Assembly: GCA_027451445.1 (NCBI GenBank)
Contig: DAIDJG010000582.1
Coordinates: 1 to 45,320 of the forward strand
Length of the DNA stretch: 45,320 bases
Direction: 5' to 3'
DNA from: Singulisphaera sp.
GTDB lineage: Bacteria; Planctomycetota; Planctomycetia; Isosphaerales; Isosphaeraceae
Shown here: positions 1,539 to 29,882 of the stretch, piece after piece
How positions within the stretch are numbered: the stretch's first letter is position 1
How the letters are laid out: each line of letters opens with the position of its first letter
The notes under the pieces: model-generated
What the model saw: only the letters and a program-made list of their open reading frames with translations
Database searches by the model: none
Told to the model about the DNA's origin: nothing
Translations under genes and position numbers: made by a program

Positions 1539-1732
1539 AGGTTGTCCCTGGGGATGCGCACGCAGGAATCTTTCGCCGATCAATCGATCCGTCATCAAGA
1601 GTGGGAAGCAACCGAGGCTCTTCGTTGGAGATACGAACCATGCCGTAGCATGCGCCAGCGAGCAATCGGATCCATCATCACCTGGCTCTGGTGCCTCGTC
1701 CAGCGAAAAGCCATAACCTGCCCGTGCTCCGC

Positions 1733-2689
1733 TCAAAGAGCGGTCGGCTCGGACACGACGGCGACGACAGTTCCGTCGTCGATCCGGATCAAAAGCGGTG
1801 TCGTCACGAACCAATCCTCATCGTCATCCAAGCGACCGCGAAGGATGGGTGACGACGGGTCGCTCTTCCCGTAGCCAGCTTTGCCATAAGGAGGCACCTC
1901 GATCAAGGCAATGGGCCATTGTGCTGCGTCGGCCGAAGGGAGTTGGCGAATCTCATAGGCACGGATGATTGCTTGACATTTTGGACAGTCGTGATGGTAC
2001 AGGAGCACCGTCCATCGGCCGCGGCGTAATGTTTCACCGATATCGATATTGGAAAGTAAGGGGAACGCGCGTCCCTCCCACAATTCGGGTTCGAGGACAA
2101 CGACTTTCCGACTCCCGATCAGACGGTTCGCGGCCTTGAAGAGTTCGGGCGAGACGAACGCACCGAGCGACACGCCGAGAATCATCAGAAGAAGGGAGGT
2201 GATCCGTAAACTGCGCAGTGTCGGAGGCCTTGACGGTGAGTCCGGGGGATGTTCGTGACCGCGTGGGGGCAAAGGCACCCAGATGGTCAGAGCCACGAGC
2301 GCCGCGACATCGATGGCGACCGTCCACCAGGGGCTCACGGCGACCCGACCAAAACAGCCGCAAGAGGTTGATCCTCGCAATCCGCTTCCCAGCGCGATGG
2401 GGGCGAAGACGGAAAAGCACACGGTCGTAGCGAGCCAAAGCGAGACTCGCTGCCACCCCGTAAGGAGCCATGATCCGAGGACAAATTCGAAGACGATGAG
2501 CGCTGACGATAAGGAGTGGGACGGAAGTCCAAGGATCCCCTGGTGGGACGTCGTGGATGGGTACAGTGCCTTGAGAGCGGCCGCGATAAACAGGAGCAAG
2601 GCGAGAAGACGCCGCACAATGTCGAAGCCTCTGACACTCCCTGAGGAACGAACGAGGGACTGCCTGATTCTGCGCGCGAACGGTATCAC
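1733..2689 (-). CDS. MauE/DoxX-like redox membrane protein with thioredoxin-like C-terminal domain
   Basis: This 318-residue protein has two parts. The first about 190 residues hold four to five membrane segments and the C-G-C-F-G motif (near residue 110) typical of MauE/DoxX-type proteins, which are thought to pass electrons for disulfide chemistry. The last about 110 residues are predicted to lie outside the membrane and hold H-H-D-C-P-K-C, a thioredoxin-like C-x-x-C site. A fusion of a redox membrane core with its thioredoxin partner would act like MauE plus MauD in methylamine dehydrogenase maturation. The start is a GTG whose GTGA overlaps the stop of the DUF1573 gene, so the two are probably translationally coupled. 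Likely targets are the Cys-rich exported proteins upstream in the cluster (3400-3606 and 7219-8088); that link is inference. The reading as a redox protein is strong, the substrate unknown. Confidence 0.8.
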   Translation of the reverse strand: MIPFARRIRQSLVRSSGSVRGFDIVRRLLALLLFIAAALKALYPSTTSHQGILGLPSHSLSSALIVFEFVLGSWLLTGWQRVSLWLATTVCFSVFAPIALGSGLRGSTSCGCFGRVAVSPWWTVAIDVAALVALTIWVPLPPRGHEHPPDSPSRPPTLRSLRITSLLLMILGVSLGAFVSPELFKAANRLIGSRKVVVLEPELWEGRAFPLLSNIDIGETLRRGRWTVLLYHHDCPKCQAIIRAYEIRQLPSADAAQWPIALIEVPPYGKAGYGKSDPSSPILRGRLDDDEDWFVTTPLLIRIDDGTVVAVVSEPTAL

Positions 2690-10638: not shown

Positions 10639-12513
10639 TTAGTCATTTAGTTGAAGACCGTGGTGGGCGTCGTCTTTGGTGACGTGATAAATCAAGATTG
10701 AGTAACCCGCTCTCGCCACCGGTCGAAACGTCTGGAGCCAGGTGTAACTTTTTCCCTCGGGTCCATTGAGGCGATAGCCATAGATCCCATTCACACTCAC
10801 TGCGTGCCACCCTGCTGAGGAATCGGGCTCACCCGACGCGCTCGATCGAGACGATGTCGGCGCAAACGCGCGCGGCACCGGCGCGAACTCGATGGCGGCC
10901 GTCCGAGGATCGATGGGCCCGAAGTAGGCAAGGTGGAACGGACGTGCTTCGGAATGCTCGTCATACCAGCGCTTCAGTTCCAACAGATCCTGGCCCCAGT
11001 CGATATTCGAATCAAGAAGGTGTCTCGGGCCATTTTCCGGTCCGCCCGAGAGCTCGTTGAAGTAAGACAGGCAGTGGGGGTAGACACAGAGCGCACTCGC
11101 TGAAGACCACACCAAGAGCAAGGCCGATACCCTGGACACAACGCACCGCGTGCGTCGGATTACTGCTCCGGCCGGATCACATCCGAAGGTCGGCGATTTA
11201 TGCCCGCAATCGGCGCCGTCAGTCCCAGTGCGAAGCAAACGGCTCAGCCAGACGTACAAAAAAGGGAAGGCTGGCAGCACGTAGCGCACGCCCGTGTTGA
11301 TCCCTGTCTTCGAGCTGACGAGAGTGAGCACGACCAGGGCCGGAGCGAGCACGACGAACTCGTCGAAGGAATCCGCAGACGTGTTGCCGACTCGATTCTG
11401 TGGCTCCCGGCGCTTTTGAGACCCTCGGTGCCCGGACAGACGTGCAATGGCGCGACGAGTTACCGACGCAACCACCCCCGCGCACGCCAGAGCGCCGAGA
11501 CATAGCGTTCCTGTGGGCACTTTCACTGACAAGGCGTAAAGGTAGTAGTACCACCACCCTCCGTACTTCAACTCGCCGGCCAGATAGCACAACTGCGGCT
11601 TCTCGAATTCATGCCATTGCTGATCGATGCCGAGCAGAAAATCGGCCGGTACCGGCACCGGAAGCAGGGCCAACCAGGAGTCAGCGAATCGATTCGCTGG
11701 GTGACGTGAGCCTTCCGCCCCGCGAAGCATCGAGCTCGTGAACCGATAATCGCCGACCTTCCGGAACGATCCTCCGAAGCCGTAACCCAGGTTCACCACG
11801 TAGATTCCCAAAACGAGAATGAGCGGTAGTTGCACGATCCGGTCATCCCGAAACAGCGCGCGCGCGGGCGTGCGGCCTGGATCGTGATGTCCTTGACGAA
11901 GCCGGTCGCGTACCAAAGAGAGCAGCGCCAGGAGCGGCCAAAGTCCAAACAAGACGATCCATGTGGTTTTCGCAAGATCGGCGAGCCCCAGGGCGAATCC
12001 GGCCAGAGCGGCACGCCGCCACGAAGGCCCTTGAAGCCAGCGCCAAAACACGTAACTCGCGCCGACACCGAAAGCCGCTGCGCCCGAGTCCGAAGTGATC
12101 AGCGTGGAGTTACCGAGAATGTTCGGGCAAAAGCACCAGAGGGCCAGAGCGAATAGACCGGGGCGCGGTCCGTAGAGCTCGAGGGCCCATCGGTAACAGA
12201 TCAGCCCACCCAACACTGTGATGGGGAGGCACGCCCAGCGAGCCAGAGTGACATACCAGAAGATCTTCGAGCCCGACTCCCAGCAAAACGCAGTGCCGGA
12301 AGCGAACTCAGGCCGTGAATCCGCGCCGTTTTGAGGGCTTACCCAGGACCAGTGCCATCCCCCAAGAAACAATGGTGCGCTCGCCAGCATGCGGATAAGC
12401 GGCGGATTCACGCGGTAAAGCGTAAAATCACCGGTCGTCCAATGCGCGAGTCCCGCCGCGAGATGTGCCGGCTCGTCGATCGTCGGACTGTATCGCCACC
12501 CCTGATAACCCAC
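10639..12513 (-). CDS. GT-C membrane glycosyltransferase, GT39/PMT_2-like
   Basis: A polytopic enzyme of 624 residues or more. Near the N-terminus it has T-I-D-E-P-A-H-L, the acidic pair that GT-C enzymes place in the first outside loop. Ten or so membrane segments follow, and a C-terminal domain opens with Y-F-N-E-L-S-G-G-P and D-S-N-I-D-W-G-Q-D, a motif I associate with bacterial PMT_2 proteins. It should move a sugar from a polyprenyl-phosphate donor to a glycan or protein outside the membrane. The only usual start is the GTG at 12513, but that cuts off the first membrane segment. The frame is open for 36 more codons that encode a basic stretch and a clean transmembrane helix, reaching an ATT at 12621 that overlaps the stop of the DUF1583 gene and has GGAG eight bases upstream. 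The true protein is probably about 660 residues. Confidence 0.8.
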   Translation of the reverse strand: MGYQGWRYSPTIDEPAHLAAGLAHWTTGDFTLYRVNPPLIRMLASAPLFLGGWHWSWVSPQNGADSRPEFASGTAFCWESGSKIFWYVTLARWACLPITVLGGLICYRWALELYGPRPGLFALALWCFCPNILGNSTLITSDSGAAAFGVGASYVFWRWLQGPSWRRAALAGFALGLADLAKTTWIVLFGLWPLLALLSLVRDRLRQGHHDPGRTPARALFRDDRIVQLPLILVLGIYVVNLGYGFGGSFRKVGDYRFTSSMLRGAEGSRHPANRFADSWLALLPVPVPADFLLGIDQQWHEFEKPQLCYLAGELKYGGWWYYYLYALSVKVPTGTLCLGALACAGVVASVTRRAIARLSGHRGSQKRREPQNRVGNTSADSFDEFVVLAPALVVLTLVSSKTGINTGVRYVLPAFPFLYVWLSRLLRTGTDGADCGHKSPTFGCDPAGAVIRRTRCVVSRVSALLLVWSSASALCVYPHCLSYFNELSGGPENGPRHLLDSNIDWGQDLLELKRWYDEHSEARPFHLAYFGPIDPRTAAIEFAPVPRAFAPTSSRSSASGEPDSSAGWHAVSVNGIYGYRLNGPEGKSYTWLQTFRPVARAGYSILIYHVTKDDAHHGLQLND

Positions 12514-12616: not shown

Positions 12617-13438
12617 TTAATGTACGGATCTCCGTTGAACCGAAAATCGATCTCGTCCGAGTATGAAGATGACGATAATCGTGAACTGAATGAGCAGCAC
12701 GATCGCCACCCGGCTCCATGCCGCCGGGCGCATCCCTGCGATCAGATGACGAGGCCCTCGCGGAATCAGGGTATTGGCGCGGACCGTCACGCTCTTGGTC
12801 ACAACACCCGGCTTTTTCGGCGACCGCTCGGCGCCGAAGGTCAAACGGACCTGGCGCACGTCGTCGGGTCCGAGATTCACCTCGCCCAGAGTCCGGAAAC
12901 GTCCGTCCCCTTCGTGGAACGACGCCTGCACAGTGTCACCGTTCCTTGCCAGTCGAAACTGCCCTGATCCCAAACGTGCCGGTGCCCGTTTTACGCGATG
13001 TCGGAGCTCGCCCGTCGCATCGGGACGGATCCAATCGGAGGCGAACTCGTGTTTCCCGTCAAGCAGGACGTGCCGCTCGATGGTGACAATGTCCCCGTTC
13101 GGCGAGTCGACATCGATCCGCAAATGCGACCCCGGCGGGGGTCCCTGGGGCGAAGGGCGGGTCGAACCCTGCTCATACGAGACCGTGATCTCGAAATCGC
13201 CCCGAATGCGCGGCCTGAGCATGATTTCGATGGGTCGCTTCTCCCGATCCGACTTGCCTGCCTTGCCCCCACCCTTCGAAGGCCCATCGCCGCCCTGGCC
13301 TTTGGGCTCGCTGACCACGTTCCACTGATCGCCGTCGATTGGCCCCGCATCGAGAACCTGATGAATCTCGTCACCGACCGACCCTCGCGAAGCGGCAACG
13401 AGAAGGCACGACATCACAAAAAACGCTGGAGTTTTCAT
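12617..13438 (-). CDS. DUF1583-like lectin-fold domain protein, exported and membrane-anchored
   Basis: The 273-residue product has a signal peptide (residues 1-22), a beta-sandwich-type domain (about 25-230) and one C-terminal membrane segment (about 243-262). The domain shares its landmarks with two other products in this window: a D-x-x-Q-W-N strand near the start, R-G-D-F-E-I-T-V in the middle, and an E-V-x-L/F...D-D-V-R-Q-V-R-L-x-F block near the end. I identify it as DUF1583-like, a Planctomycetota family of unknown function that probably adopts a concanavalin or LamG-type fold. This copy is the most divergent: it has a Gly/Lys-rich insertion near residues 47-67 and lacks the G-H-G-S-G-V-G-L block of the other two. 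No good ribosome site precedes the ATG. It sits between two GT-C genes, and its stop overlaps the proposed ATT start of the next one. Confidence 0.65.
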   Translation of the reverse strand: MKTPAFFVMSCLLVAASRGSVGDEIHQVLDAGPIDGDQWNVVSEPKGQGGDGPSKGGGKAGKSDREKRPIEIMLRPRIRGDFEITVSYEQGSTRPSPQGPPPGSHLRIDVDSPNGDIVTIERHVLLDGKHEFASDWIRPDATGELRHRVKRAPARLGSGQFRLARNGDTVQASFHEGDGRFRTLGEVNLGPDDVRQVRLTFGAERSPKKPGVVTKSVTVRANTLIPRGPRHLIAGMRPAAWSRVAIVLLIQFTIIVIFILGRDRFSVQRRSVH

Positions 13439-13482: not shown

Positions 13483-14817
13483 TCATACCGGTGTGACCGC
13501 CCCGCGCTTCCTGAACGCGAGACGCTCGCACGCCGCGTTCCAGCCCCAGTAACAAAAGAGGCACTTCATCCCCAGGAGCGGAAATCCATAACGCTCGTAA
13601 TACGCGACCAGAACGTAGGGGACCAGATAGCTCGTGTAGATGATGATCGCCAACAGCTTCTGCCGATCAAGTCGTTGGCCTTCGAGGTAAAGCAACAATA
13701 TAAGCCCATAGAAGGGGAACGGATGAACGATGTAACTGATAAAGAGCGTGATTCCTCGTTCCAAATCGCTGTGCGGGTAGTAGATGAGTGTTGCGGCCAG
13801 GAAACGATTACCCACCTTGGAGAGATAGTCGACGGGCTGATGCCGCAAGTAGTCGAGAAAGCGAGTTCTGTATCCGTCCAGGTAGAGCATTTCTCCTTTT
13901 TCCTGGTACGCGCGACGTTCCGGACCATTGATCTTGTATGGATGTTTCGAACGGAACGTGACATCGCGGAGAATGCCATCCGGTTCGAGGACATTCGACT
14001 GATAGAGTTCGAAATACAGGTTTGACTTGATCGGAATGAAGCGGTGGAACGTGACGGCGTTGCGGGCGATCCATGGCGAGACGATGAGCGCGGCGATCAG
14101 AAAAGCGCGGGCGAGCGCTCTCGTCCTCCAGGTTGGAGCACAGGCCAGTGTGACGACGCCCCAGACAAACGCCAGCACCGGTCCAGTCAGCGCCGCGAAT
14201 CCGCCGAACGCCCCCCACAGAAGCGATTCGCTGAACGACAGTGCACGACCCCAGAGGCGGCAGACGGCAAAAAACATCATGCTGAGACTGAGCAGTATCA
14301 ACCAGGAATCGTGTGTCCTCTGGAAGCAACTGTGGAAATGATAGATCATTCCCGCGACGTAGATCCCTAAAGCGACGGCCGGTCCGTTCGCGCGCGTGGT
14401 GGTGCGCCGGGCCGCGTCCATGACGACCCACCCGGTCACGATCAGCGCGAGATTCTGGAGCAGGACGACGCACACGGCGGCCGCCTTGATCGCGCCGAGC
14501 GCGGAGATCAGCGCGGCCTGGAGGAGAGGAAGGATGGGGGGCATCCACGCGGTCGGGCCCGTGTGCTCGCCAAACGGGTCGGCATAACCTCTGCCGGAGG
14601 CGAGCGACACGGCGATATGGCGGTATTCCCCGCCCAGGTGATCGACCATGTTGCCGTCGTAGTTCGCTCGAAAAGGGGGGAGCCACGCATTGAGCGCGGG
14701 GACCCCGAGGAGCCTCGGCAAATTGGAGGCGAGCGACGCGGCGCAGACCACGACAACGAGAACCACCGACTCTCGTGTCAGGCTCTGACGCGAAGTGCGA
14801 GCGGCATCCGCTTTCAT
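13483..14817 (-). CDS. GT-C-like polytopic membrane protein, paralogue of 24386-25729
   Basis: The 444-residue protein has about ten membrane segments. After the first helix come P-P-F-R-A-N-Y-D and H-L-G-G-E-Y-R-H-I-A, then G-P-T-A-W-M-P-P, then a long run of helices with R-F-I-P-I-K-S-N and Y-E-L-Y-Q-S-N-type motifs in a loop, ending in V-L-V-A-Y-Y-E-R-Y. These blocks recur almost unchanged in the product of 24386-25729, so the two genes are paralogues. The arrangement fits a GT-C glycosyltransferase acting outside the membrane; the acceptor is unknown. The ATG at 14817 overlaps the stop of the preceding gene in an ATGA; the frame is open to 14928 but without leader character. It is the third of three genes joined by 4-bp overlaps, which implies translational coupling. 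Confidence 0.75.
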   Translation of the reverse strand: MKADAARTSRQSLTRESVVLVVVVCAASLASNLPRLLGVPALNAWLPPFRANYDGNMVDHLGGEYRHIAVSLASGRGYADPFGEHTGPTAWMPPILPLLQAALISALGAIKAAAVCVVLLQNLALIVTGWVVMDAARRTTTRANGPAVALGIYVAGMIYHFHSCFQRTHDSWLILLSLSMMFFAVCRLWGRALSFSESLLWGAFGGFAALTGPVLAFVWGVVTLACAPTWRTRALARAFLIAALIVSPWIARNAVTFHRFIPIKSNLYFELYQSNVLEPDGILRDVTFRSKHPYKINGPERRAYQEKGEMLYLDGYRTRFLDYLRHQPVDYLSKVGNRFLAATLIYYPHSDLERGITLFISYIVHPFPFYGLILLLYLEGQRLDRQKLLAIIIYTSYLVPYVLVAYYERYGFPLLGMKCLFCYWGWNAACERLAFRKRGAVTPV

Positions 14818-16397
14818 CGCACTTCCTCCCGGTTGGGAAGCAGCTTTTCGAGGTCCACTACCGCAAAACGCTGGTTGCGATAAAGAATCGCCTCGTCGCT
14901 CAGATAGGGGGGTACGGCGCCCTGCCACAGGAGGTGGGTGACCTTCATCCTTCTGAGTTCGTCACCAGCTTGGGGACTAATCTGTCCGCTGTGCCGAAGC
15001 TCGCGGTAGAGCGAATCGCAAAATGCGACTCTGCGTGACCATTCGAGAACTTCGGAGTCCTTGTACGGATGCGACTTGAAATCCACGTAGACGGGGACTC
15101 GAGTCCTCGTCCGGAAGTTCTCGATCTCTCCATGACCACGCTCGATCGGTACGACGAACGTCTGAATGGTCGAGCGTTGGCTGCAAACGTAGCGCGTCAG
15201 TTCTCGAAATTCGACCGACGAGTCGTTCTGAAACCGCTTGTAGATCAAGTCCGCGCCATAGAACGTCACGAGAACGAGCAGCAATCCCCGAACCACGTGG
15301 GCCAGCAGCAGCCAGGCCGTGCCAGGTCCGCGGCTCACTTCGGACAAGGTCAAGATGAGTCGACTGAGGATGATGGCCGTCGCTACCGGGACGAGGAGCG
15401 TCGAGGCGCGCCAGGGAAACAGGAGGGCCAACGAGTCGCTTCCCGAGACGATTTGCACCGTCGACAGCGAGGCGGATACAAGGAGACTGACTGTAAGGAC
15501 CGTGAACAGTCGAGTTCCCCAAACAAAGCCGAGGGCAAGGAGGACCCACGCCAGCCGGAACAGGGCCACTTCATCGAACCAGCGCGACGCGACGCAGTGG
15601 TGGGGGATCCGTTCCACCGCGAGAATGTGCTGGGCACGCTGAAACATGTCCGGCGATGACGGACCGAATGTCCGGAGGGTATACAGCAACGTGGGTGCGA
15701 TCGCCAGCCCATACAACAGGGACAGAGCGACGACGCGCCGGGAGACTCTCCGGTCGTCCTTGATGAGGAGGACCAGATAAGTCGAAGCCAGCACGGACGC
15801 CATGATGAAGTAAGTAAAGTGAACGGCTGGCGGAATGGCCGCGAAGGCCATGGCCTGCCACGGCTTGTTCTGTGCGAAACGCGCTACCGAGAGAACCAGA
15901 AAGACTCCGAAGAGGCTCGGTTGGAGGTAGTGGTCGAGGATGGATTGGTAGGCTAAACCGTCCGTGAGCGCGTCGCGAAGGTCGAAACGGAAAAAGGCGG
16001 ACGTGAGGTCGCCAAGCAGGGCGGAGTGAACGACGATTACGGCGGTCACGAACGTCCATCGAGCGTTTGCGCCCGCGCGATCGCCGCCCACGACCTCGAA
16101 CAGCGCAAGGAGACCGGCGAGGTACGGGATCATCAGCAACAGGAATTCGAGGTAGAACGGCCATTCGCCCAGCGCGCGATACGTGGTCTCAACGAGGAAA
16201 CTGAACGCAGGTATCGGGTCGGCTGTGCCGATCAGCCAGTCACGATCGATCGAACCGAACCCCACCTTCGCCAGCCCTATCAGGAACTTGTGGTTCTGGT
16301 TCGACGCATAGAGCGGTCGGAAGGTGTAAGCGATCCCCAACGCGGCCGATGCGGTGACGAGCAGCATCTTTTGTGGCCAGCGACGTAAGCCAATCAT
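14814..16397 (-). CDS. Polytopic membrane protein, GT-C-like, function unknown
   Basis: This 527-residue protein has about ten to twelve membrane segments and a soluble C-terminal domain of about 120 residues. The first outside loop carries F-G-S-I-D-R-D-W-L, an acidic position in the place where GT-C enzymes keep a catalytic carboxylate, and later D-L-T-S-A-F-F-R-F-D-L-R-D-A-L. I do not recognise a precise family; relatives in Planctomycetota are generally annotated only as membrane proteins. The C-terminal domain, with a W-Q-G-A-V-P-P-Y motif, looks like the soluble tail found on other sugar transferases here. It overlaps its neighbours by four bases on both sides, so it is translated together with the GT-C-like genes flanking it. 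Unlike those two, it has no obvious second copy in the window. Confidence 0.7.
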   Translation of the reverse strand: MIGLRRWPQKMLLVTASAALGIAYTFRPLYASNQNHKFLIGLAKVGFGSIDRDWLIGTADPIPAFSFLVETTYRALGEWPFYLEFLLLMIPYLAGLLALFEVVGGDRAGANARWTFVTAVIVVHSALLGDLTSAFFRFDLRDALTDGLAYQSILDHYLQPSLFGVFLVLSVARFAQNKPWQAMAFAAIPPAVHFTYFIMASVLASTYLVLLIKDDRRVSRRVVALSLLYGLAIAPTLLYTLRTFGPSSPDMFQRAQHILAVERIPHHCVASRWFDEVALFRLAWVLLALGFVWGTRLFTVLTVSLLVSASLSTVQIVSGSDSLALLFPWRASTLLVPVATAIILSRLILTLSEVSRGPGTAWLLLAHVVRGLLLVLVTFYGADLIYKRFQNDSSVEFRELTRYVCSQRSTIQTFVVPIERGHGEIENFRTRTRVPVYVDFKSHPYKDSEVLEWSRRVAFCDSLYRELRHSGQISPQAGDELRRMKVTHLLWQGAVPPYLSDEAILYRNQRFAVVDLEKLLPNREEVR

Positions 16398-18040
16398 TCC
16401 GGCTTCCCCCGGATCATTTGATCATCGGGAGTGTTTGCGGCAGACCGGCGCATGACTCGTAGACGTCCCTGGTGAAAGACCTCCTGATAGTTGCCCTTAA
16501 GACTCGTTGACGGATCGTTCGTACTGCCCCAAGTGAGGATGACGTCGGCCGCGCGCCAGTGGTCTTCCGTCAGGCCGTTCAACGACCGTGTAAATTCGGG
16601 GCGGTAGATCACTGGGAAGTGTTTGGTGCCGGCTTCGTAATTCTGCAAGCTGATGTTTCCACCGCGGATGCAGTAGAACTCTAACGCGTGATGAAGATAA
16701 TCGACTGGGATCTTGGGGTCGCGACCCCGGGCCGAAGCCATCGTGAGGTTTCCTTCGAGCTCGGGCGAATTCAACGCACCGGTGAATTCCACGAGGTCGC
16801 GGCCCGCGGCATCAAAGAAGAGGCAGACGGACACCAGGTTGATCGCGAGCAGCGCGGACATACCGACTTTGATGCTCGCGAGGCCGAATCGGGACGATGG
16901 AAGCCGGACGCAGGGGGCAAAGGCCATGATCACGAAGGGTACCAGCCTCGTTCGCAAATAGCCGCCATGCTCTCCCAGGTGTTCCGGCGCAACGAGGTAC
17001 ACTGCGGCGAAGGCGAGCGCGATCGCCAGAGCCGCCCGGCGCAAGGGCCGGTACTCGACGTCGCCTGGATTTGGTTTTGCAAGCCAGCTCGCCACGAGTA
17101 CAACCTCGATGAAAAAAGCGGACAGGATTCCGATCGGTAGCCAGGATATCTCATAAGCGCCGAATAAGTTCTCGTTCAAGGCAGTCAGTTCCCAAAGTAT
17201 TAACTCGACGATGTTGTTCCAGTCGTTGAGCAGAGGCCGCGCGGAGTTCACCCAAAGCGCACCCTTGGGACCAAAAAAGCCCGAGGAAAGGAGGTAATAC
17301 GCGGTGAGACAGAGGCTGGGAAGAGCTGCCAGAGTCAGCCAACCGAGCTTGCGCGCGCGGCCCTTCCCCGGCGCCCAGAGCAGAAACCACGCGGCCGCGG
17401 GGACTGAGAGGAGGAGGCCGACCAGATGAGAGAAATATTGGATTAAGAATAGACCACAGAGGCACAGGCATTCCCGGCGACCGATCGCGTCCCGGCGGCG
17501 GATCGTGTAACCGAGGATGATCCAGAAAAGCGCCGTCGCCAGGTAGAAGTTGTAAAAACCCATCAGCAGGGAACGGTTGTAGACCAGCAACAACCCAAGC
17601 GGCCAGAGGCGCCGAACTCCCGGGCCAAACGCTCCCAGGTAATAGCGGAAGCCAGCCACAAACGCGACGACGAGCGCCGACACCAGTAACCGTTCAGCAA
17701 TCAGAGGCGGCACGACGAGCAAAAGTCCGGCCAGCACAATATGCGATGTCCAGTTCGGAATGGGCTCGCGCCGGAGTTCGTAAAACTCGGCGTACCGGCT
17801 TCCAGGCCGCCCGTAGTTGAGCAAAATGGCGGCATTGGCCACGTGCGATGGGCCGTCCTGCGTCGGCAAAAAGGGGAAGACCCAGATGGGCTCCAGATAG
17901 ACGACGAGCAGCGCGATCAACCAGACCAGATCGCCGCGCCCGCTCCCCGACGGCGCCGTAGCGAGCCGATCCGCCGGCGCGTCGACACCCGAAGCGCCTT
18001 CATGTCCTTGCCGCTTATTCTCGTCTATGTCCCTGTTCAT
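16394..18040 (-). CDS. GT-C-like polytopic membrane protein, paralogue of 25726-27351
   Basis: The 548-residue protein has a polar N-terminal stretch of about 45 residues, ten or more membrane segments and a soluble C-terminal domain. Landmarks are T-Q-D-G-P-S-H-V in the first outside loop, P-I-P-N-W shortly after, M-G-F-Y-N-F between two helices, and a Q-N-Y-E-A-G...F-P-V block in the tail. Each recurs in order in the product of 25726-27351, so the two are paralogues. The T-Q-D-G-P-S-H loop with its Asp and His is a good candidate active site for a GT-C-type transfer, but this is inference. The ATG at 18040 was chosen for its AGGACGG box eight bases upstream; the frame is open to 18184. It is the first gene of a tightly coupled trio and has the AT-rich gap 18041-18313 as its likely promoter region. 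Confidence 0.75.
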   Translation of the reverse strand: MNRDIDENKRQGHEGASGVDAPADRLATAPSGSGRGDLVWLIALLVVYLEPIWVFPFLPTQDGPSHVANAAILLNYGRPGSRYAEFYELRREPIPNWTSHIVLAGLLLVVPPLIAERLLVSALVVAFVAGFRYYLGAFGPGVRRLWPLGLLLVYNRSLLMGFYNFYLATALFWIILGYTIRRRDAIGRRECLCLCGLFLIQYFSHLVGLLLSVPAAAWFLLWAPGKGRARKLGWLTLAALPSLCLTAYYLLSSGFFGPKGALWVNSARPLLNDWNNIVELILWELTALNENLFGAYEISWLPIGILSAFFIEVVLVASWLAKPNPGDVEYRPLRRAALAIALAFAAVYLVAPEHLGEHGGYLRTRLVPFVIMAFAPCVRLPSSRFGLASIKVGMSALLAINLVSVCLFFDAAGRDLVEFTGALNSPELEGNLTMASARGRDPKIPVDYLHHALEFYCIRGGNISLQNYEAGTKHFPVIYRPEFTRSLNGLTEDHWRAADVILTWGSTNDPSTSLKGNYQEVFHQGRLRVMRRSAANTPDDQMIRGKPE

Positions 18041-18210
18041 CGCGACGCCGTCCTGAATGCGAATGGTGTGCTTCTCGTCCCGTCGTCGATCACGTTTCTC
18101 GCGGCGTTCGGTGCGATCTTCACTTTGGCGAAGCACCCGGCCTTTCGGGTCGTCTATACGCCGGGAGAGACACGCCGACCGCAAGTGTACGGCGCCCTCT
18201 CTTAAATGAT

Positions 18211-18313: not shown

Positions 18314-21300
18314 TCACGCCACAACCGGGCAAGTCCCCGGTTCGCCGGACGGGACGTGTTTGATCGTCACAACCACAATCGCCACCATCCAGATCGTGAA
18401 CGCTTGCGAGTCACCCAACGTCCATCCGCCTACCTGGAGGCAGACGAGCGGCCCCAGGAACCCAAGGAGGAGCAAGGCGCCAAGAGTCGGTGATGCTCGG
18501 CCAATTGCGACGAGGTGAATGCCCGGCGCCAAAAGAACCGCGGCCATCGCCAGGTCACCTCGACTTGCCGCGAGCACCGCAATGCTCGCCGTTGCCAGGA
18601 GCCGCGTGGAGAACCAATCCGTCGACGGGCGCCAGGGACCGCGCCAAACCAGGGCGATAGCGCCAACACCGATCGCCGGTACCAGGTACCATGAAACCGA
18701 CTCCCAGCGCGCGACGATTGATTCGGGCAACCACCGTCGCACAAAGGCATGAGCATTAACGAGTGTTTCCCGATCCGCGTCCGTGGAGAGGGCTCCCGAT
18801 CCGCAAAACGGTCGCAAGCTCGACAGGAAAGCGCGCGATCCAGACGTTCCGGCCGTCGCTAGGCTGGCCAGGCCGATCAAGAGACAAGCGATCGCCATTC
18901 CGAACGCGGCTCGCCAGCGCCTTCGCCAGAGGAACACCAGGCTGAGTGCAGCCCCAAATTCTGGCCTGACCCAGAGCAGTCCGGCCCAGAGGCCCGCCCA
19001 CCCTTCAGCGCCGCGCGCGAAACTGCGCTGGGTGAAATAGAAACCCACGATGGCGAGGACGGTGATCGACCCGACCCCAAGCATCACGCCGAGCGGCAAG
19101 AAGAGGAGAGACAGACCCGCAATCGGCCAGGCGGCTTCTCCGATTGGGCGCATCGGCCGTTGTGCGAGTGCCAGGACAACGGCAACGCAGGCCGCGACCC
19201 AGGTCAAGAAGCCGATGCTTGGTTCGAGCGCTGCGAACGGTGCAACGGTGAGTAGGAATGCGGGAGGACAGGGTGGAGGCGTCAGCCGATAGGCGCGCGC
19301 GTGCTGATGCTCCCGTCCTCGAGTCGCGCGGTCAAAAGCCGCTAATGTGGCCGGGTCGTACGACGACCCTCCCCACCCGGCCGCGATGGCCCTGATCCCA
19401 GCCTGGAGTGCGGCGAAATCCTTTCCCAGGCCGATCGACCTATGGAACGACCTTTCGATTGGGTCGACAGCCAGCAAGGCAACGGGGACGGCGACGGCAA
19501 TCGCCAACCAGCAAGCTTTTTTGGCTGGGGATCCGGCAGCGAAGTCCGACGTGCGCTCCCAGGCCTTACGCGCGCCTACCCAGAGAACCCACCCGCCGAC
19601 GCCGACGAATAAACTCCAGCATGGCAAGAAGGGTAAGTAATAGCGCTCCCACCTCAGCGGAAGCGATGGTGCGAGGGTGCCCATCAGGACGGCGGACCAG
19701 ATCAACAGGGCCGCGTATCTCCGGTCAAGACGTTTACCAAGCGGAGAGCCCAGCGCTTGCGCGGCGACTGCGGCCACTCCAGCGCAGGCCAGGCCCGTGA
19801 TCGGCCAGGAAATTGGCCGATGGGTGCCTGCCCCCGAGAGAAACTCGTAGACCGTAAAAAGCCGGGTCTCGAGGCCGTTGATTTGGTACTGCGTGAGACG
19901 TGATGCTTGGCTCTCGGCGACGGCGGATCGCTGCCTGATCATCGCGAGGAACTCTCCGACAGGGTCCGTATACAGCGTCGGATTCACCGCGACCGACCAG
20001 AATAGGGCGAGCGAAACAAAAATCAGAAAACAAGTCCACTTTCTCTGGAGCAGCGCGAGAATAAGAACGACGACCAAACCCGTGAAGAGGCCCGTCAACT
20101 TCGCGCCGAGAGCGAGACCCGCGAATAGAGCCGCGAAGACGATCGCGGCCCAGGGTTGGCGCGAAATCGTTTCGCCGTCGGTTGTTGTAGAACCCGGGAC
20201 CGCGAGGATCGCCATAAGGATCGATAATGTGCTGAAGAACATGAGTGGAGCGTCGGACATTGCCATGGGCTGGCAGTCGAGGGCAAGCGGGTGGCACGCA
20301 TAGACGAGCCCGGCAACAAGGCCGACGACGACCCGGTTCGTCACGATCGTCCCGATAGCGAAAATGACGACTGCGACGAGCGACCCCAGAATCGTGCCGG
20401 GAATGCGCACGATCTTGAGGAGCTCGGCCGAAGGAACCGGGTCGTGACTCCAGGGAGTCGTATGGCTCGGAACGGGAGGGACCGGCTTTCCGCAGATGTG
20501 CAAGACTGCGCCGACCAGGAAATCGGTCACGTGAGGTTGGTCTCTGCCGTCGAAGTCCGTCCAGAGGGTGTGGGACAGGTCATGGTTGATGAACGCCAGC
20601 CGGTAGAAGTAAGCCCGAGCTGACCAGTCCCGTTCGTCAATGTGAGGCTCATTGCTGCGCGCGGCGAAAGTATGATTGAACACCGAGACGATCAAGACGC
20701 ATAGCGCGGCGGCAAGTATGGTGGATCGAACACCGGGCACCGCTCGGAGCCTCTCGAGCGACACCGCGTCGGCTTGTCCGCGTTCCGGCCGGGTCATCGG
20801 TGAGCGCTTGCGCGAGAGAGCAATTGCGACCACGGCGAGGCTAATTCCTCCGTACACCAACGCGGCGACCGCCCATAGTCGTCCGGATGGTACCTGGGGA
20901 GCAACACCGGGGCGCTCCAGAAACGAGTCGGCCTGAACGGAGATCTGCTTCAGGAGCACCTGGAGGGCAGCGTCCGAACGTCCGGAATCGGCCGCAAACC
21001 GGATCTCCCAAAGATCGTCCGTTGTGAAGTTCACGTCGCGGAGGGTGCGTAACGGGCCGGATCCGTCGGAATACTGTGCGGATACATGCCCTCCGTGCCG
21101 GACCAATTTGACCCGTCCCGAGCGATCGAGGGAGGCGTTCTCTTCGACGCGATACCGTCGCTGCCCATCCGGCAGCGTGGTAATCAGTGTCGAGTGAAAC
21201 TTCTCGCCTCCTTTCGGCAGGCGAAAACGCTCCATGGTGATTGTCTCGCGAGCGGAGCGTGATCCGCGCGCCAGCAAGCCGACGCCCGAACCGTGGCCCT

Positions 21301-21631
21301 CGAGTGGTTGGTCGCCCCCCAGGATCTCGTAGTCGGCCGTGACCTCGAAATCGCCGTGAAGACCAAAGCCCAGGATGAACCCCATCGGATCGGGGTGGCC
21401 CAGGCCCTTCGGTATCGTGACCACCAACCCTCGCGATGATCGCTCAATGTGGCCTTCGACGCCACCGACCGGCTCCAGGAAACGCGCGGCGGCCTGGCCG
21501 TCCTCAAAGTTCCAGTGGAAGTTCGCCGCGTCAACCTCGCGCGCGCACGCCGTGCCTACCCACAGGGCGAACAGCCACTGCGAGCAAACAACAACGCGCG
21601 CGTGCCACCGTTGCCCCTTGGTCGCTCTCAT
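18314..21631 (-). CDS. Triple-domain fusion: DUF1583-like, GT39/PMT-like, GT87-like
   Basis: An 1105-residue protein with three parts. Residues 1-35 form a signal peptide and about 36-240 a DUF1583-like beta-sandwich, with H-G-D-F-E-V-T-A-D-Y-E-I-L, G-H-G-S-G-V-G-L and L-x-E-I-R-F-A-A-D. A membrane segment follows near 250-270. About 300-720 is a GT-C module like GT39/PMT_2, with the acidic pair in P-H-I-D-E-R-D-W in its first outside loop. About 730-1090 is a second GT-C module like GT87, with Y-D-P-A-T-L near the start and a P-P-x-P-P-A-F loop before a helix. Members of both families use polyprenyl-phosphate sugars, so the chain may add two sugars one after the other while the first domain holds or senses the glycan; that is inference. 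The ATG at 21631 overlaps the stop of a stand-alone DUF1583-like gene in an ATGA. Each part is usually a separate protein. Confidence 0.8.
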   Translation of the reverse strand: MRATKGQRWHARVVVCSQWLFALWVGTACAREVDAANFHWNFEDGQAAARFLEPVGGVEGHIERSSRGLVVTIPKGLGHPDPMGFILGFGLHGDFEVTADYEILGGDQPLEGHGSGVGLLARGSRSARETITMERFRLPKGGEKFHSTLITTLPDGQRRYRVEENASLDRSGRVKLVRHGGHVSAQYSDGSGPLRTLRDVNFTTDDLWEIRFAADSGRSDAALQVLLKQISVQADSFLERPGVAPQVPSGRLWAVAALVYGGISLAVVAIALSRKRSPMTRPERGQADAVSLERLRAVPGVRSTILAAALCVLIVSVFNHTFAARSNEPHIDERDWSARAYFYRLAFINHDLSHTLWTDFDGRDQPHVTDFLVGAVLHICGKPVPPVPSHTTPWSHDPVPSAELLKIVRIPGTILGSLVAVVIFAIGTIVTNRVVVGLVAGLVYACHPLALDCQPMAMSDAPLMFFSTLSILMAILAVPGSTTTDGETISRQPWAAIVFAALFAGLALGAKLTGLFTGLVVVLILALLQRKWTCFLIFVSLALFWSVAVNPTLYTDPVGEFLAMIRQRSAVAESQASRLTQYQINGLETRLFTVYEFLSGAGTHRPISWPITGLACAGVAAVAAQALGSPLGKRLDRRYAALLIWSAVLMGTLAPSLPLRWERYYLPFLPCWSLFVGVGGWVLWVGARKAWERTSDFAAGSPAKKACWLAIAVAVPVALLAVDPIERSFHRSIGLGKDFAALQAGIRAIAAGWGGSSYDPATLAAFDRATRGREHQHARAYRLTPPPCPPAFLLTVAPFAALEPSIGFLTWVAACVAVVLALAQRPMRPIGEAAWPIAGLSLLFLPLGVMLGVGSITVLAIVGFYFTQRSFARGAEGWAGLWAGLLWVRPEFGAALSLVFLWRRRWRAAFGMAIACLLIGLASLATAGTSGSRAFLSSLRPFCGSGALSTDADRETLVNAHAFVRRWLPESIVARWESVSWYLVPAIGVGAIALVWRGPWRPSTDWFSTRLLATASIAVLAASRGDLAMAAVLLAPGIHLVAIGRASPTLGALLLLGFLGPLVCLQVGGWTLGDSQAFTIWMVAIVVVTIKHVPSGEPGTCPVVA

Positions 21632-22455
21632 GCGGGTTTGTCCACGGGCGCTGGCGACGCCCCGGGTTTGCTTCCTCGGCGTACCAGAACGAAGAGGACC
21701 GTAGGAATGACGATCACAACGACGATCAGCAGAATGCGACGCAATCCGGACCCGAAAGAGCCTGACGCGGCCGCGCTCGGAAAGTCGTCCGCATTGACGG
21801 TGAGATTCTTCAACAGGACTTTCAACGGATAGTTCGTGCGGCCGTTATCGGCGACGAAGCGAACCTGCGTCAAATCCCCGTCGCCGAAATCAACCTCCCT
21901 CAACTCCTGAAAGTCGCCCTTGCCGTCAGTAAAGTACGCACGCACCTTCGTCCCTTCGCGCTTGATACGGAGCTTGCCGGACGTCGCATCCGTTTTGACA
22001 CGCTTGGGATTGAACTGGCGCTTGCCATCGTCGGATGTCGTGATCCTCGTCGACGTGAACGTGGGACCAACGTCCGGGATGTCAAATCGCTGGAGCGTCA
22101 GCCCGATCTTCCGGGGGTACTCCGACTCGATCGTGAGCCCGACTCCGCTGCCATGCCCGTCCGAGGGGGGAGTGAGTCCGAGGATCTCGTATTCGGCAAG
22201 GACTTCGAAATTGCCGCGCACGGCGGAACGAAGGGAGATCCCTGTCGCTTCCGGCTCTTGATCCTCTTCAGTGAACTCGACCACCAGCCCCTCGGGCACT
22301 CCCTTCGTCAGCTTCGCATAATCCCGGCCGACATGGTTCCACTGCCCATCGTCGACGTTGCCCCCCTTCAATTCCGCTTGAATCTCGGCCCCGAACGCCG
22401 TGGACAGCGACAGCCCAACATTCACAATGAGGGCCCATTTCCATCTGCCGTTCAT
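21628..22455 (-). CDS. DUF1583-like lectin-fold domain protein, exported and membrane-anchored
   Basis: The 275-residue product has a signal peptide (residues 1-22, ending near A-F-G-A), a DUF1583-like beta domain (about 25-225) and one membrane segment near 240-258, followed by a basic, Pro-rich tail. It carries the same blocks as the N-terminal part of the next protein in the same order: R-G-N-F-E-V-L-A-E-Y-E-I-L, G-H-G-S-G-V-G-L, a T-T-S-D-D-G-K-R strand, and L-T-Q-V-R-F-V-A-D-N-G-R. The domain probably folds as a jelly roll and may bind sugar; no function is established for the family. The ATG has GGGAG six bases upstream. Its stop overlaps the start of the triple-fusion gene, so the free and fused copies are made together, which suggests that they may pair. 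Confidence 0.75.
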   Translation of the reverse strand: MNGRWKWALIVNVGLSLSTAFGAEIQAELKGGNVDDGQWNHVGRDYAKLTKGVPEGLVVEFTEEDQEPEATGISLRSAVRGNFEVLAEYEILGLTPPSDGHGSGVGLTIESEYPRKIGLTLQRFDIPDVGPTFTSTRITTSDDGKRQFNPKRVKTDATSGKLRIKREGTKVRAYFTDGKGDFQELREVDFGDGDLTQVRFVADNGRTNYPLKVLLKNLTVNADDFPSAAASGSFGSGLRRILLIVVVIVIPTVLFVLVRRGSKPGASPAPVDKPA

Positions 22456-24385: not shown

Positions 24386-25729
24386 CTATTTCAGTTGTGT
24401 TTCCACTCCAGGAGAAAGCTCCGCATCGGTTCCAGCCGGCTCTGTGAAGAACGCGCGAACCGTTTGCCAGCCCCAGTAGCAAAACAGCACCCTGACGGGC
24501 AACAAGGGAAATTGATAGCGCTCGTAATATGCGACGAGCACATAAGGCAGCATGTACGAGACGTAAACGATCATGCTAATACGCTGGCAGGAGTGCCGCC
24601 GAAATCCACCTCTGAGAAGTAGCAGCAAGAAACCGTAAAAGGGAAGGGGGTGCAACAAACATCCGGCCCAATAGCTGACGTCCCGCTCATTCGGATTGTA
24701 CGGGTGATAGAGCACCGTCGCGGCGAGCAGACGGTTCCCCACCTTCGTCACGTACGCGAGAGGATCACGGCGCAACGAGCGCAGGAATTTCTCTCGGAAC
24801 TCGTCGAGAAACCGGACTTCGCCGATCTCCTGGTAACGCTTCCGCGCTTCGTTCTCGCCTGCGAACGGATGCGTCGTCGCGGTCTTCCGCTGAAGAAGGC
24901 CGTCCGCCTCCATATCGTTCGACTGGTAGAGCTCGTAAAACGCGTTTGACTTGATCGGGATGAACCGGTCGAGCATCCAGTAGTTGCGCGCGACCCATGG
25001 CGCGACGATGAGCACCGCCAATAGCACCGAAAGTCCAAATGGTCGGATCTTCCGGAAGGAAGCGAACTGATTGATCGTAAGGATTGCCCACACGAATCCG
25101 AGGACCGGACTCGTCAACGCCGAAAGTGCACCGAAGACTCCCCAGCCGATGGACGCCGCACTTCCGGGCGCCCGAAGACTCATGCGATCGGCCAGAACGA
25201 CCATGGCGCTTAAGACCAGCGTCACAATCCAGTGATCGTGTGTAAATTGGAAGCATAAATTAAACTCATAACAAAGCGCCAGTAAGTAGAGCACCAGAGC
25301 GGCCATCACGTCGCCCGGGCGCGTCGCAGTCCGGCGACTGAACCGCAGGACGACCCAACCGCCAAACACCAAGGCCAGGTTCTGAAGGACGACAACACAG
25401 TAGACGACGGGCTGCACCTCGCCGAACACTTTGAGCAGGGCGGCGAGAAGCACAGGGTAGACCGGCGGCATCCACGCCGTGGGGCCTGTCTCTACCCCGA
25501 ACGGGTCGGAAAAACCGCGTCCCGACGCGATCGCCCGGGCGATGCAGAGGTATTCACCACCGAGGTGCTGGACCAGGTTGGAGTCCCAGCCGGCTCGGAA
25601 CGGCGGAACGTAACCGAGCAGGCGTTTATTGTCCAGCAAGCGAGGAGCGTTGGCGTACCCGGAGAGGCTGAATACTGTGACGAAGAGCAAAACAAGAGGA
25701 ACGAAAGCACGCCAACCACGTCTGGTCAT
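24386..25729 (-). CDS. GT-C-like polytopic membrane protein, paralogue of 13483-14817
   Basis: The 447-residue protein has about ten membrane segments. Its landmarks repeat those of the product of 13483-14817 in order: P-P-F-R-A-G-W-D, H-L-G-G-E-Y, G-P-T-A-W-M-P-P, a C-F-Q-F-T-H-D-H-W loop, R-F-I-P-I-K-S-N, Y-E-L-Y-Q-S-N and V-L-V-A-Y-Y-E-R-Y. The strict conservation of loop motifs while helices drift points to a shared catalytic job, probably sugar transfer outside the membrane (inference). The ATG at 25729 overlaps the stop of the preceding gene in an ATGA and begins with a basic M-T-R-R-G-W before the first helix; the frame stays open to 25900 without leader character. It ends a five-gene unit that starts with the GT2 gene near 31 kb. 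Confidence 0.75.
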   Translation of the reverse strand: MTRRGWRAFVPLVLLFVTVFSLSGYANAPRLLDNKRLLGYVPPFRAGWDSNLVQHLGGEYLCIARAIASGRGFSDPFGVETGPTAWMPPVYPVLLAALLKVFGEVQPVVYCVVVLQNLALVFGGWVVLRFSRRTATRPGDVMAALVLYLLALCYEFNLCFQFTHDHWIVTLVLSAMVVLADRMSLRAPGSAASIGWGVFGALSALTSPVLGFVWAILTINQFASFRKIRPFGLSVLLAVLIVAPWVARNYWMLDRFIPIKSNAFYELYQSNDMEADGLLQRKTATTHPFAGENEARKRYQEIGEVRFLDEFREKFLRSLRRDPLAYVTKVGNRLLAATVLYHPYNPNERDVSYWAGCLLHPLPFYGFLLLLLRGGFRRHSCQRISMIVYVSYMLPYVLVAYYERYQFPLLPVRVLFCYWGWQTVRAFFTEPAGTDAELSPGVETQLK

Positions 25730-27351
25730 CGGCGCGCCTCCTTCGGATGCACTTCGGTCGGTCGGCTCGTCGGCGAGGCTGATATCTTCGTGGATCCTTT
25801 GCTCGTCGTCGCCGTCTTGCGCGAGTAGACGGTGATGTCTCCGGAACTTTGGACGCGCGGAAATTCTTCGGTGATAAGACTCAAGAGCTCCGGAGGACAA
25901 TAGGGACCCAGGTAGAGCAAATCCACGAGTTTCATGTCGTCACGGAACTGGGAATAGTCTCTCCTCCGGATGCGGTCGAGGTCCGGGACGGGTTGATGGG
26001 GCCTGAACCTTACGGGAAAACAAAAACCGTGGGCCTCATAGTTATCCCAGTTGACCACGGCGGACTGGAGGCAGAGACGGTCGACGAGGTGCTCACGAAG
26101 CAGGATCCGATCCTGTGGCGGAGAACTCAAAAAGAGCGGCAAGATGCGCGCTCCATTCGGTGGCTCGCGCAAGCTGGATAGCAAGTGGTTCACCTGCTGG
26201 TCTCCCTTGCCGAACGTATTGGCCACGGCGGCCAGTCCGACGAGCGCGAGTCCGGCTGATAGGAACAGCGCGCAGTTGACCGTCTGGCGGGTACGGGGCG
26301 TGGGCAGGCATGCGAGGACGAGGAGCCCGGTGGCAACCGCCAGCCGTTCGGTGAACCAACCTCCGTGGTGCCCCCAATTCTGGGGAAAGAGCACCGCCAG
26401 GGACAGAAGTTCCGCGGCCGCCACCAGGAATGGGCCCTTCGCTTGTCGGAACGCGACGATGCTCGCTCTCCCCTCGGATCGAATGGTGACGGCTGCAAGG
26501 ACGAACGCGGCCAACCCCAGGATCGACACGGCGGCGACCGCAACATCCGAGTCGTACTGCGGTGTCGGCGCGAAGATCGAGGCGGCAACGCGGCTGAGCA
26601 GTTTCAACGGCCCGTCGTCCGAATCGGCAACCAGGCGCCACATCGACGACTTCCCGGAATACTGACGGTCGGATGCCACGACGTACCAGCACGTCAAAGC
26701 GAGCGACGGCGCGAGGACCAACCCAACTTTAACGACCGCCGCCAGACGCCTGCGCGAACCGAGGATCAGCACCACCGTGAGAACAACCGCCGCGATTCCA
26801 AAGGCCACGAGATGGGCGAGGTACGTTGCTACGTAGAGGACAGAAAGCACCAAACCCCGTGTTAGCGTCATGCGGTCCCGGTTTCTCCAGGCGTAGCCCG
26901 TGTCGAAGAGAATCAATGGCACGCCCACTAAGAAATTATAAAAACCCATGTAGAGCGTGAAGTTGAATGCCAGCGGTACCGAGAGCGCCGACCACGCTTC
27001 CTGGCCCGGTGCTACGCCCTTGAGGAGGTAGCGACAGCCGACGGCGACCGCGACAAGGTAAAGTGACAGCAGGGCCTTTTCTGCGGTCGCCGGCATGGTC
27101 CCCGCCGCGATCATGGTCGCCAGGACAGCGTGCCCGGCCCAGTTGGGCACGGGCTGTAGGCGGACGGCGAACACACGCGCAACGGGCGACGACTTGTGGG
27201 ATAGCTCGGTCAACAGGAGTGCGTTATAAACATGACTGGGACCGTCCTGCGTGGCCAAATGGTGGGCGGACCAAACGGGCCAAAGGTAGGCCGCAACGAC
27301 CGCCGCGAGGACGACGTCCGAGGGATTGACGCGGCGGAACAACGAGAGCAT
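25726..27351 (-). CDS. GT-C-like polytopic membrane protein, paralogue of 16394-18040
   Basis: A 541-residue membrane protein with ten or more helices and a soluble C-terminal domain of about 150 residues. T-Q-D-G-P-S-H-V lies in the first outside loop, P-V-P-N-W follows, G-F-Y-N-F sits between helices, and N-W-D-N-Y-E-A-H lies in the tail. All of these recur in the product of 16394-18040. The last about 30 residues are a basic Thr/Ser-rich tail without counterpart there. The ATG at 27351 has AGAGGA seven bases upstream. It begins 12 bases after the J-like/PD40 gene and overlaps the next GT-C-like gene by four bases. Compared with the first copy of this pair, the middle gene (14814-16397) is absent here. 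Confidence 0.75.
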   Translation of the reverse strand: MLSLFRRVNPSDVVLAAVVAAYLWPVWSAHHLATQDGPSHVYNALLLTELSHKSSPVARVFAVRLQPVPNWAGHAVLATMIAAGTMPATAEKALLSLYLVAVAVGCRYLLKGVAPGQEAWSALSVPLAFNFTLYMGFYNFLVGVPLILFDTGYAWRNRDRMTLTRGLVLSVLYVATYLAHLVAFGIAAVVLTVVLILGSRRRLAAVVKVGLVLAPSLALTCWYVVASDRQYSGKSSMWRLVADSDDGPLKLLSRVAASIFAPTPQYDSDVAVAAVSILGLAAFVLAAVTIRSEGRASIVAFRQAKGPFLVAAAELLSLAVLFPQNWGHHGGWFTERLAVATGLLVLACLPTPRTRQTVNCALFLSAGLALVGLAAVANTFGKGDQQVNHLLSSLREPPNGARILPLFLSSPPQDRILLREHLVDRLCLQSAVVNWDNYEAHGFCFPVRFRPHQPVPDLDRIRRRDYSQFRDDMKLVDLLYLGPYCPPELLSLITEEFPRVQSSGDITVYSRKTATTSKGSTKISASPTSRPTEVHPKEARR

Positions 27352-28772: not shown

Positions 28773-29864
28773 TTAGAAGTCCCCCCCGGGGTTCGGCTGT
28801 ACCAACGCGCTCGAACTAAGCTTTGCCCCCTGGGGACTGATCAGTGCGGCATAGACGGGGCCGGCAATCGTTTGCTTGACGAATTGAGCATGGCCATCGC
28901 AAAAAAACATATTGACGCCGCCGTTGTGATACGACGAGGGCCAGGGCGCTTCCCCTTCCGGTTGGTCGAGGGAGGCGTTGATCGATTCGAAGGACTGGGG
29001 CTGATTCGAGTGGTCGTTGGCCTTGGAATAATCAACGTTACCGGGGGAGCAGGTTGAGTTCTTGCAGACATAACCGGTGAGCATAAAGCTCTGCCGAGGG
29101 GGCCACGGATCGGACCAGCCTGTCTGCCAAATGGGGTCGTATCCGACGCGCACGTTCTCGGTCACCAGAATCGTCGAGGAGGTACCGTCCGTCACACCTG
29201 CCAGGGTGTGATGCCGCGCGGTACCCGTCCCGTAGGGCCAGTTCTCCACGAAGAAAAGGCCAGTCCACATGTACATAGCCTTGTCCGGTGCCAGGATCGC
29301 CGGATCACTGGTGTTGCCACAGGTCTTGCCGTCCCCATTGAAGTCGAATGGGGTCTTGGTCGGTTTGCCGGGAGCGACCCAGTGCGGGCTGATCGGGCAG
29401 TCGACGGGATGGGTCCAACCGAAGCCGCCGTTGACCACGAAGCTGAGGTTTCCCTTTCCGGGCACGACCGAAATGTCGCTCGGACAAACGAGCACGCCGA
29501 TCGAGGTTTGCGACAGAGCGCCGTTTTGCGACGATGCCGTATCATTGTACGGCTGGTCGAGGGTCCACGCGTTTCCGATGTCGTTCCGGTCGATGTCGCT
29601 CAGGATGGATACGACCCAGTTCCGGTAGATTTCGGTCGTGGAGGAGCTAAAGTACCCGCTGGCGGGAAATCGGCCCTCGCGATCGGTGTCCTGAAGTAGA
29701 CCTATACCGACCTGTTTCATGTTGCTCAAGCATTGCGCCCGGCGTGCCGCTTCGCGCGCCTGTGACACGGCGGGGAGTTGAAGGCCGATGAGAATACCGA
29801 TAATCGCAATGACCACCAGCAAATCGATCAGCGAGAAAGCTCTGCGCACGTGCTTGACCGTCAT
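28773..29864 (-). CDS. DUF1559 pseudopilin-like protein with H-x9-DG motif
   Basis: A 363-residue member of the DUF1559 family, expanded in Planctomycetota. The N-terminus is a type IV pilin-like leader: a short basic stretch, A-F-S-L-I-D-L-L, a long hydrophobic helix and then A-R-E-A-A-R-R. The rest is a beta-rich outside domain that ends with the family motif H-N-G-G-V-N-M-F-F-C-D-G. Two features differ from the usual leader: Ala replaces Gly before the processing site, and Asp replaces the Glu at position 5 of the mature protein, so handling by prepilin peptidase may be altered. The ATG at 29864 was chosen over a GTG at 29879 because GGAGG lies five bases upstream. It starts 18 bases after the GT2 gene and may present or bind the glycan made by this locus. 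Confidence 0.9.
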   Translation of the reverse strand: MTVKHVRRAFSLIDLLVVIAIIGILIGLQLPAVSQAREAARRAQCLSNMKQVGIGLLQDTDREGRFPASGYFSSSTTEIYRNWVVSILSDIDRNDIGNAWTLDQPYNDTASSQNGALSQTSIGVLVCPSDISVVPGKGNLSFVVNGGFGWTHPVDCPISPHWVAPGKPTKTPFDFNGDGKTCGNTSDPAILAPDKAMYMWTGLFFVENWPYGTGTARHHTLAGVTDGTSSTILVTENVRVGYDPIWQTGWSDPWPPRQSFMLTGYVCKNSTCSPGNVDYSKANDHSNQPQSFESINASLDQPEGEAPWPSSYHNGGVNMFFCDGHAQFVKQTIAGPVYAALISPQGAKLSSSALVQPNPGGDF

Positions 29865-29882
29865 GTGAACCTCCGCCACTGT

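Follow-up and report, generated by a model that had tools for sequence, protein, structure and literature searches.

The window analyzed here is the whole of a 45,320-nt contig from Singulisphaera sp., an uncultured planctomycete (DAIDJG010000582.1), part of a genome assembly of 10.9 Mb in 622 contigs that is 96.4% complete with about 4.8% contamination. Positions 18314 to 21631 of the minus strand form a single uninterrupted ATG-to-stop frame of 1105 aa, and its parts, together with the gene just upstream, are as follows (basis in parentheses).

18314..21631, minus: whole gene, 1105 aa, with signal peptide, DUF1583, transmembrane (TM) helix, PMT-type GT-C module and GT87-type GT-C module (Pfam and coding signal)
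21542..21631, minus: signal peptide, residues 1 to 30, ending in TACA (sequence reading; hydrophobic at 11 to 29)
20918..21541, minus: DUF1583 domain, residues 31 to 238, predicted ConA-like jelly roll (Pfam; AlphaFold2; Foldseek, VIA-align)
20810..20887, minus: TM helix C-terminal of DUF1583, residues 249 to 274 (hydropathy, AlphaFold2 model)
19532..20764, minus: PMT-type GT-C module, residues 290 to 700 (Pfam PMT; full-length alignment with stand-alone homologues)
20633..20638, minus: predicted EL1 catalytic Asp-Glu pair, D332-E333 (invariant in 15 sequences)
18317..19531, minus: GT87-type GT-C module, residues 701 to 1105 (Pfam GT87; model closest to PimE 9dm5)
21628..22455, minus: upstream gene, 275 aa, with signal peptide, DUF1583 and TM helix (Pfam)

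A preliminary description made from the letters alone had read this product as one protein with a signal peptide, a DUF1583-like lectin fold, and two different GT-C modules, and this reading holds; the strand, on which the description was silent, is minus. The Pfam searches that it proposed give matches above the curated cut-offs for all three families (22.7 bits for PMT, 25 bits for GT87, and 22.9 bits for DUF1583), and the motifs that it quoted can all be located (PHIDERDW near residue 329, YDPATL starting at 758, and PPPCPPAF at about 785 to 792). The PMT-type and GT87-type modules are distinct, and each matches complete stand-alone proteins in other genomes. Comparing the profiles of the two modules yields only a brief and weak match, which puts PMT K511 near GT87 R889.

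Hydropathy shows the signal peptide, a TM segment at about 254 to 272, and then the TM segments of two polytopic modules. By sequence reading, there are positively charged stretches at residues 273 to 285 and 687 to 706; one, SRKRSPMTRPERG, comes right after the first TM helix, and the other, ARKAWERTSDFAAGSPAKK, sits between the PMT-type and GT87-type modules. Both stretches fit the cytoplasmic side of the membrane, which would place DUF1583, D332-E333, and D738 outside. The sequence thus fits a topology in which DUF1583 and the first external loops of both GT-C modules face outside.

The preliminary description had allowed that the fusion might be an assembly error joining separate genes, but neither a frameshift nor a join is visible in the coding signal. 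When the gene is divided into 17 successive windows of 65 codons, its own frame has positive codon log-odds in every one, and the two alternative forward frames have negative values. GC3 is even along the gene, and GC is even across the module junctions. Because the coding signal is continuous and the frame has no break, it is unlikely that positions 18314 to 21631 are a misassembled gene join. The search for other genomes with the same architecture, also proposed in the preliminary description, had a divided outcome: the three-part layout of DUF1583, PMT, and GT87 is in no other genome among 45 Isosphaeraceae and 398 of the class, while tandem GT-C chains occur in five genomes. Each third of the fused protein is a separate gene or protein elsewhere in the genomes searched. 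Used whole as a query against the genome collection, the 1105-aa protein found no relative; a plasmid search and a single-sequence search of the PDB were likewise without a match. We conclude that the three-module architecture is real and that, in its present form, it has been seen once. As the preliminary description had supposed, no described enzyme with this layout was found in the literature searched.

The outer domain is marginal by sequence and clear by fold. Pfam PF07622 matches residues 37 to 183 with 24.2 bits against a cut-off of 22.9. When the whole chain was aligned globally with partial homologues, the modules were misplaced; that alignment was left out of folding, and the structure models cover two parts, DUF1583 and GT87. 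The AlphaFold2 model of the DUF1583 part (pLDDT 88.5) consists of an all-beta domain and, after it, a single helix. It resembles the beta-sandwich domain of the GH43 xylosidase 5z5d (Z of 19.7) and GH16 laminarinases, including the planctomycete PtLam (Z of about 17), and Foldseek also matched legume-type lectins. The modeled fold is thus of the lectin/laminarinase (ConA-like) type, in agreement with the lectin fold of the preliminary description. The near-invariant DUF1583 positions (P45, G64, D65, F66, G143, and R149 in domain numbering) include no acidic catalytic pair, and the modeled fold suggests that the domain may bind sugar. The 275-aa upstream gene, which overlaps the start of the fused gene by 4 nt, is a paralogue of the N-terminal third of the fused gene (35%). 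DUF1583 is also fused to Ser/Thr protein kinases and to a heparinase/alginate-lyase-like protein (loci L036, L037, L038, L040, L043, and L034; the match in L038 is below the Pfam cut-off). In those fusions, as here, the domain rides on membrane or secreted proteins of Isosphaeraceae, although the partner domains are different. Its presence on kinases and a lyase in relatives suggests that DUF1583 is a movable outer module.

In the PMT-type module, Pfam PF02366 matches residues 409 to 536 with 30.6 bits against 22.7, covering only profile positions 86 to 209 of 245. The family profile of this module also matches the archaeal oligosaccharyltransferase AglB (E of 2e-5). The module retains D332-E333, R409, P411, D460, K511, N550-P551, R568, and R663-Y664. 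Among these, D332-E333, R409, K511, N550-P551, and R663-Y664 are conserved in 14 relatives, some stand-alone and some fused, in which position 460 is Asp or Glu. Work on MtPMT assigns the working role to two Asp residues, one of them in EL1, and to a paired Arg and Tyr (PMC12331936); the present module is mapped onto these by motif only. At the start of TM2, Asp370 replaces the Lys of the P-P-L-P-K motif, which is Lys in 14 of 14 relatives, and an Arg pair at 455-456 has been lost. Of 81 conserved columns, 36 are kept, and the branch length of the module is 2.84 versus 0.72. Since the branch is long and both the Lys at 370 and the Arg pair are gone, PMT activity is not assured. Judged by these residues, the PMT module resembles an enzyme more closely than GT87 does, though it is itself unusual.

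For the GT87-type module, Pfam GT87 (PF09594) matches residues 789 to 1021 with 60.4 bits against 25, covering profile positions 4 to 235 of 237. The model (pLDDT 72.9, pTM 0.76) has a GT-C fold whose nearest relative is PimE 9dm5 (Z of 19.9, 4.5 A over 334 residues), followed by PIG-U (Z of 14 to 15.6), ALG3, and ALG6. The GT87 profile aligns with PimE residues 77 to 357 (E of 6e-23), and PimE Y92, Q163, K195, W319, H321, and H322 were mapped through this alignment; D58 and Y62 lie outside it and were placed by motif (Asp, with Tyr four residues on). In PimE, D58, Y62, Y92, Q163, K195, and W319 are each essential, Ala mutants at Y62, Y92, Q163, K195, and W319 abolish activity, and H321/H322 help but are not strictly essential (PMC12041525). 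The corresponding positions here are as follows.

19418..19420, minus: D738, counterpart of the PimE catalytic base D58, retained (alignment/motif)
19406..19408, minus: L742 at the PimE Y62 position, Tyr lost (motif placement)
19268..19270, minus: C788 at the PimE Y92 position, Tyr lost (profile alignment)
19067..19069, minus: S855 at the PimE Q163 position, Gln lost (profile alignment)
18965..18967, minus: R889 at the PimE K195 position, a conservative change (profile alignment)
18548..18565, minus: SRGDLA, residues 1023 to 1028, in place of the relatives' Tyr/Phe-His-x-His (aligned with PimE W319-H321-H322)

All but one of 18 aligned GT87 proteins have Gln at the position of PimE Q163, and the module as a whole keeps 32 of the 60 columns conserved among relatives. 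Its sister (support 0.988) is the C-terminal GT87 of locus L033, which keeps DFGIY, AYP, GQ, KPQ, and YHNHAH and so retains the PimE set except Trp, having Tyr-His-Asn-His there as is usual in its clade. The branch of the present module is 1.80, versus 0.74 for this sister. PimE and the GT87 module are thus alike in their GT-C fold and in having the catalytic Asp at the same place; they differ at every other position listed above, and PimE is a single-module protein. Based on this comparison, the predicted donor site of the GT87 module is eroded, most of the residues that its family needs for holding the donor having been lost.

Tandem GT-C chains are found elsewhere in the family. In most Isosphaeraceae genomes, the relatives of the PMT-type module sit next to a gene for a second GT-C, and in four of these genomes (G013, 993 aa; G021, 999 aa; G020; and G022) the pair is one chain, those of G020 and G022 being cut by locus ends. 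In G000 (C438), G008, G037, and G038, matches span both genes of the pair through a lone in-frame TAA, and the two gene calls are 0 to 3 nt apart. The PMT plus GT-C chains can be explained by simple loss of a stop codon. The fused loci are L108:6714-9695, L109:1-2362, L116, and L119, and the TAA-interrupted ones are L114, L115, L117, and L120. A fifth genome, G016, has an 887-aa GT87-GT87 chain (L033:1762-4425, minus) with the key GT87 motifs kept in both modules, and the two genes corresponding to it are neighbors in other genomes. The long GT87 frames in G006 and G042 were rejected as tandem chains because they have N-terminal extensions without membrane modules, and those in G003 and G013:C530 were rejected because each has a single GT87 match. 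The recurrence of tandem chains points to fusion of neighboring GT-C genes as a habit of Isosphaeraceae. The four fused PMT plus GT-C loci and L033 are like the present protein in having two GT-C modules per chain derived from adjacent genes; unlike it, they are without DUF1583, join other pairs of modules, and have kept their key motifs. No description of tandem GT-C enzymes was found in the literature searched.

Between 10.6 and 27.4 kb on the minus strand, the gene has neighbors that mostly code for large membrane proteins, a number of which are GT-C-like. It is flanked by two pairs of membrane-protein paralogues on that strand, 13483-14928 with 24386-25900 (E of about 1e-132) and 16394-18184 with 25726-27351 (E of about 1e-41), suggesting a duplicated block of GT-C-like genes. 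A GT2 at 783-1814 (minus) resembles the polyprenyl-phosphate-sugar synthases AglJ and PpgS, the latter a polyprenyl-phospho-GalNAc synthase, and is a plausible donor maker. It overlaps a MauE-like membrane gene (1733-2689). The presence of many GT-C genes and a candidate donor-making GT2 favors a surface-glycan role, and the neighborhood suggests cell-surface glycan assembly.

The reading that we put forward, at about an even chance of being right, is that the protein combines one active GT-C, a GT-C partner with an eroded donor site, and an outer domain of glycan-binding type. It would be an inner-membrane GT-C glycosyltransferase that arose by gene fusion, in which the PMT-type module is the working enzyme because catalytic-type residues are kept there while the donor-site residues of GT87 are changed. 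At the outer face, this module would move a sugar carried on polyprenyl phosphate to an extracytoplasmic acceptor, with D332-E333 in its first external loop possibly acting as base. The GT87-type module would no longer bind a donor in GT87 fashion and may be a structural or acceptor-holding partner, comparable to the GT-C-fold subunit PIG-U of the GPI transamidase, and DUF1583 may hold the growing glycan or glycosylated surface near the active site.

The preliminary description had instead proposed a built-in two-step sugar addition, which the analysis did not bear out here. If both modules were active, they would add two sugars successively to the same glycan, GT87 doing so through an altered donor site or with another donor. 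D738 remains, with Arg at the Lys position; the reading frame of the GT87 module is still open and its coding bias persists, so that the module is not in free decay; and both L033 and the PMT plus second GT-C chain at L108 keep key motifs in both halves. Since Arg is a conservative replacement at K195, and PimE does not strictly require H321/H322, a changed but still active donor site is possible. However, with the counterparts of PimE Y62, Y92, Q163, K195, and W319/H321/H322 all changed and only the catalytic Asp left, we find two active modules improbable, if worth serious consideration, and two-step addition suits the tandem relatives better than it does the 1105-aa protein. The fullest form of this idea, a single polypeptide whose two unlike GT-C sites place two sugars in turn on a glycan that its ConA-like domain holds, as one case of a wider Isosphaeraceae tandem GT-C class, we likewise judge improbable, and a little more so.

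It is quite unlikely that neither module transfers sugar and that both GT-C folds have been reused in a membrane scaffold or carrier within a surface-glycan cluster. Consistent with such a role, both modules are on long branches and the PMT module has changed at positions where its relatives never vary, but its Asp-Glu pair, Arg409, Lys511, and Arg663-Tyr664 are unchanged. An active GT87 module beside a reused PMT module would fit the longer PMT branch and the loss of the Lys at 370; the residue pattern points the opposite way, and we regard this arrangement as very unlikely. The chance that two or three genes were misjoined is smaller still. The fragmented assembly, its 4.77% contamination, and the single occurrence of the layout would agree with an artefact, but the frame and the coding bias and GC across the junctions speak against it, as do a topology that fits at both junctions and the tandem GT-C chains of five other Isosphaeraceae genomes.

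The preferred arrangement of one working PMT-type module and an altered GT-C partner can be set beside two known systems. In eukaryotic PMTs, too, two GT-C chains come together, with a beta-rich MIR domain on the outside. The present protein is like the GT39 PMTs (Pmt1-Pmt2 and MtPMT) in its Pfam PMT match, its EL1 Asp-Glu, its second Asp, and its Arg-Tyr near the C-terminal end, and it differs in having two unlike GT-C modules in one chain and an N-terminal ConA-like outer domain. The proposed likeness to PIG-U is that a GT-C fold has a partner's role within a bigger assembly, except that PIG-U is a separate subunit and the GT87 module is part of a fused chain. GT-C enzymes have so far been known as single-module chains, sometimes paired as separate subunits, whereas Isosphaeraceae repeatedly fuse two per chain, once with a lectin-like outer domain and a second module whose donor site appears eroded. 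These tandem chains are natural test cases for cooperation between GT-Cs and for a GT-C fold turned into a noncatalytic partner. DUF1583, for which no functional work was found in the literature searched, gains a predicted fold and a usage pattern.

Elsewhere in the window, a second stand-alone DUF1583-TM gene (12617-13438, minus) is directly followed by a PMT_2 gene (10639-12513, minus), which is the order inside the fused protein. Two further PMT_2 genes are on the plus strand, at 33574-35277 and about 35256-37196; the long minus-strand frames opposite them (33703-35223 and 35220-36968) match no family and are likely to be antisense. In the same gene run as the fused gene, 14814-16397 (minus) encodes a membrane protein with a DUF6798 match, and near the head of the run 28773-29879 (minus) encodes a DUF1559 protein whose N-terminal methylation (pilin-like) motif is weak.
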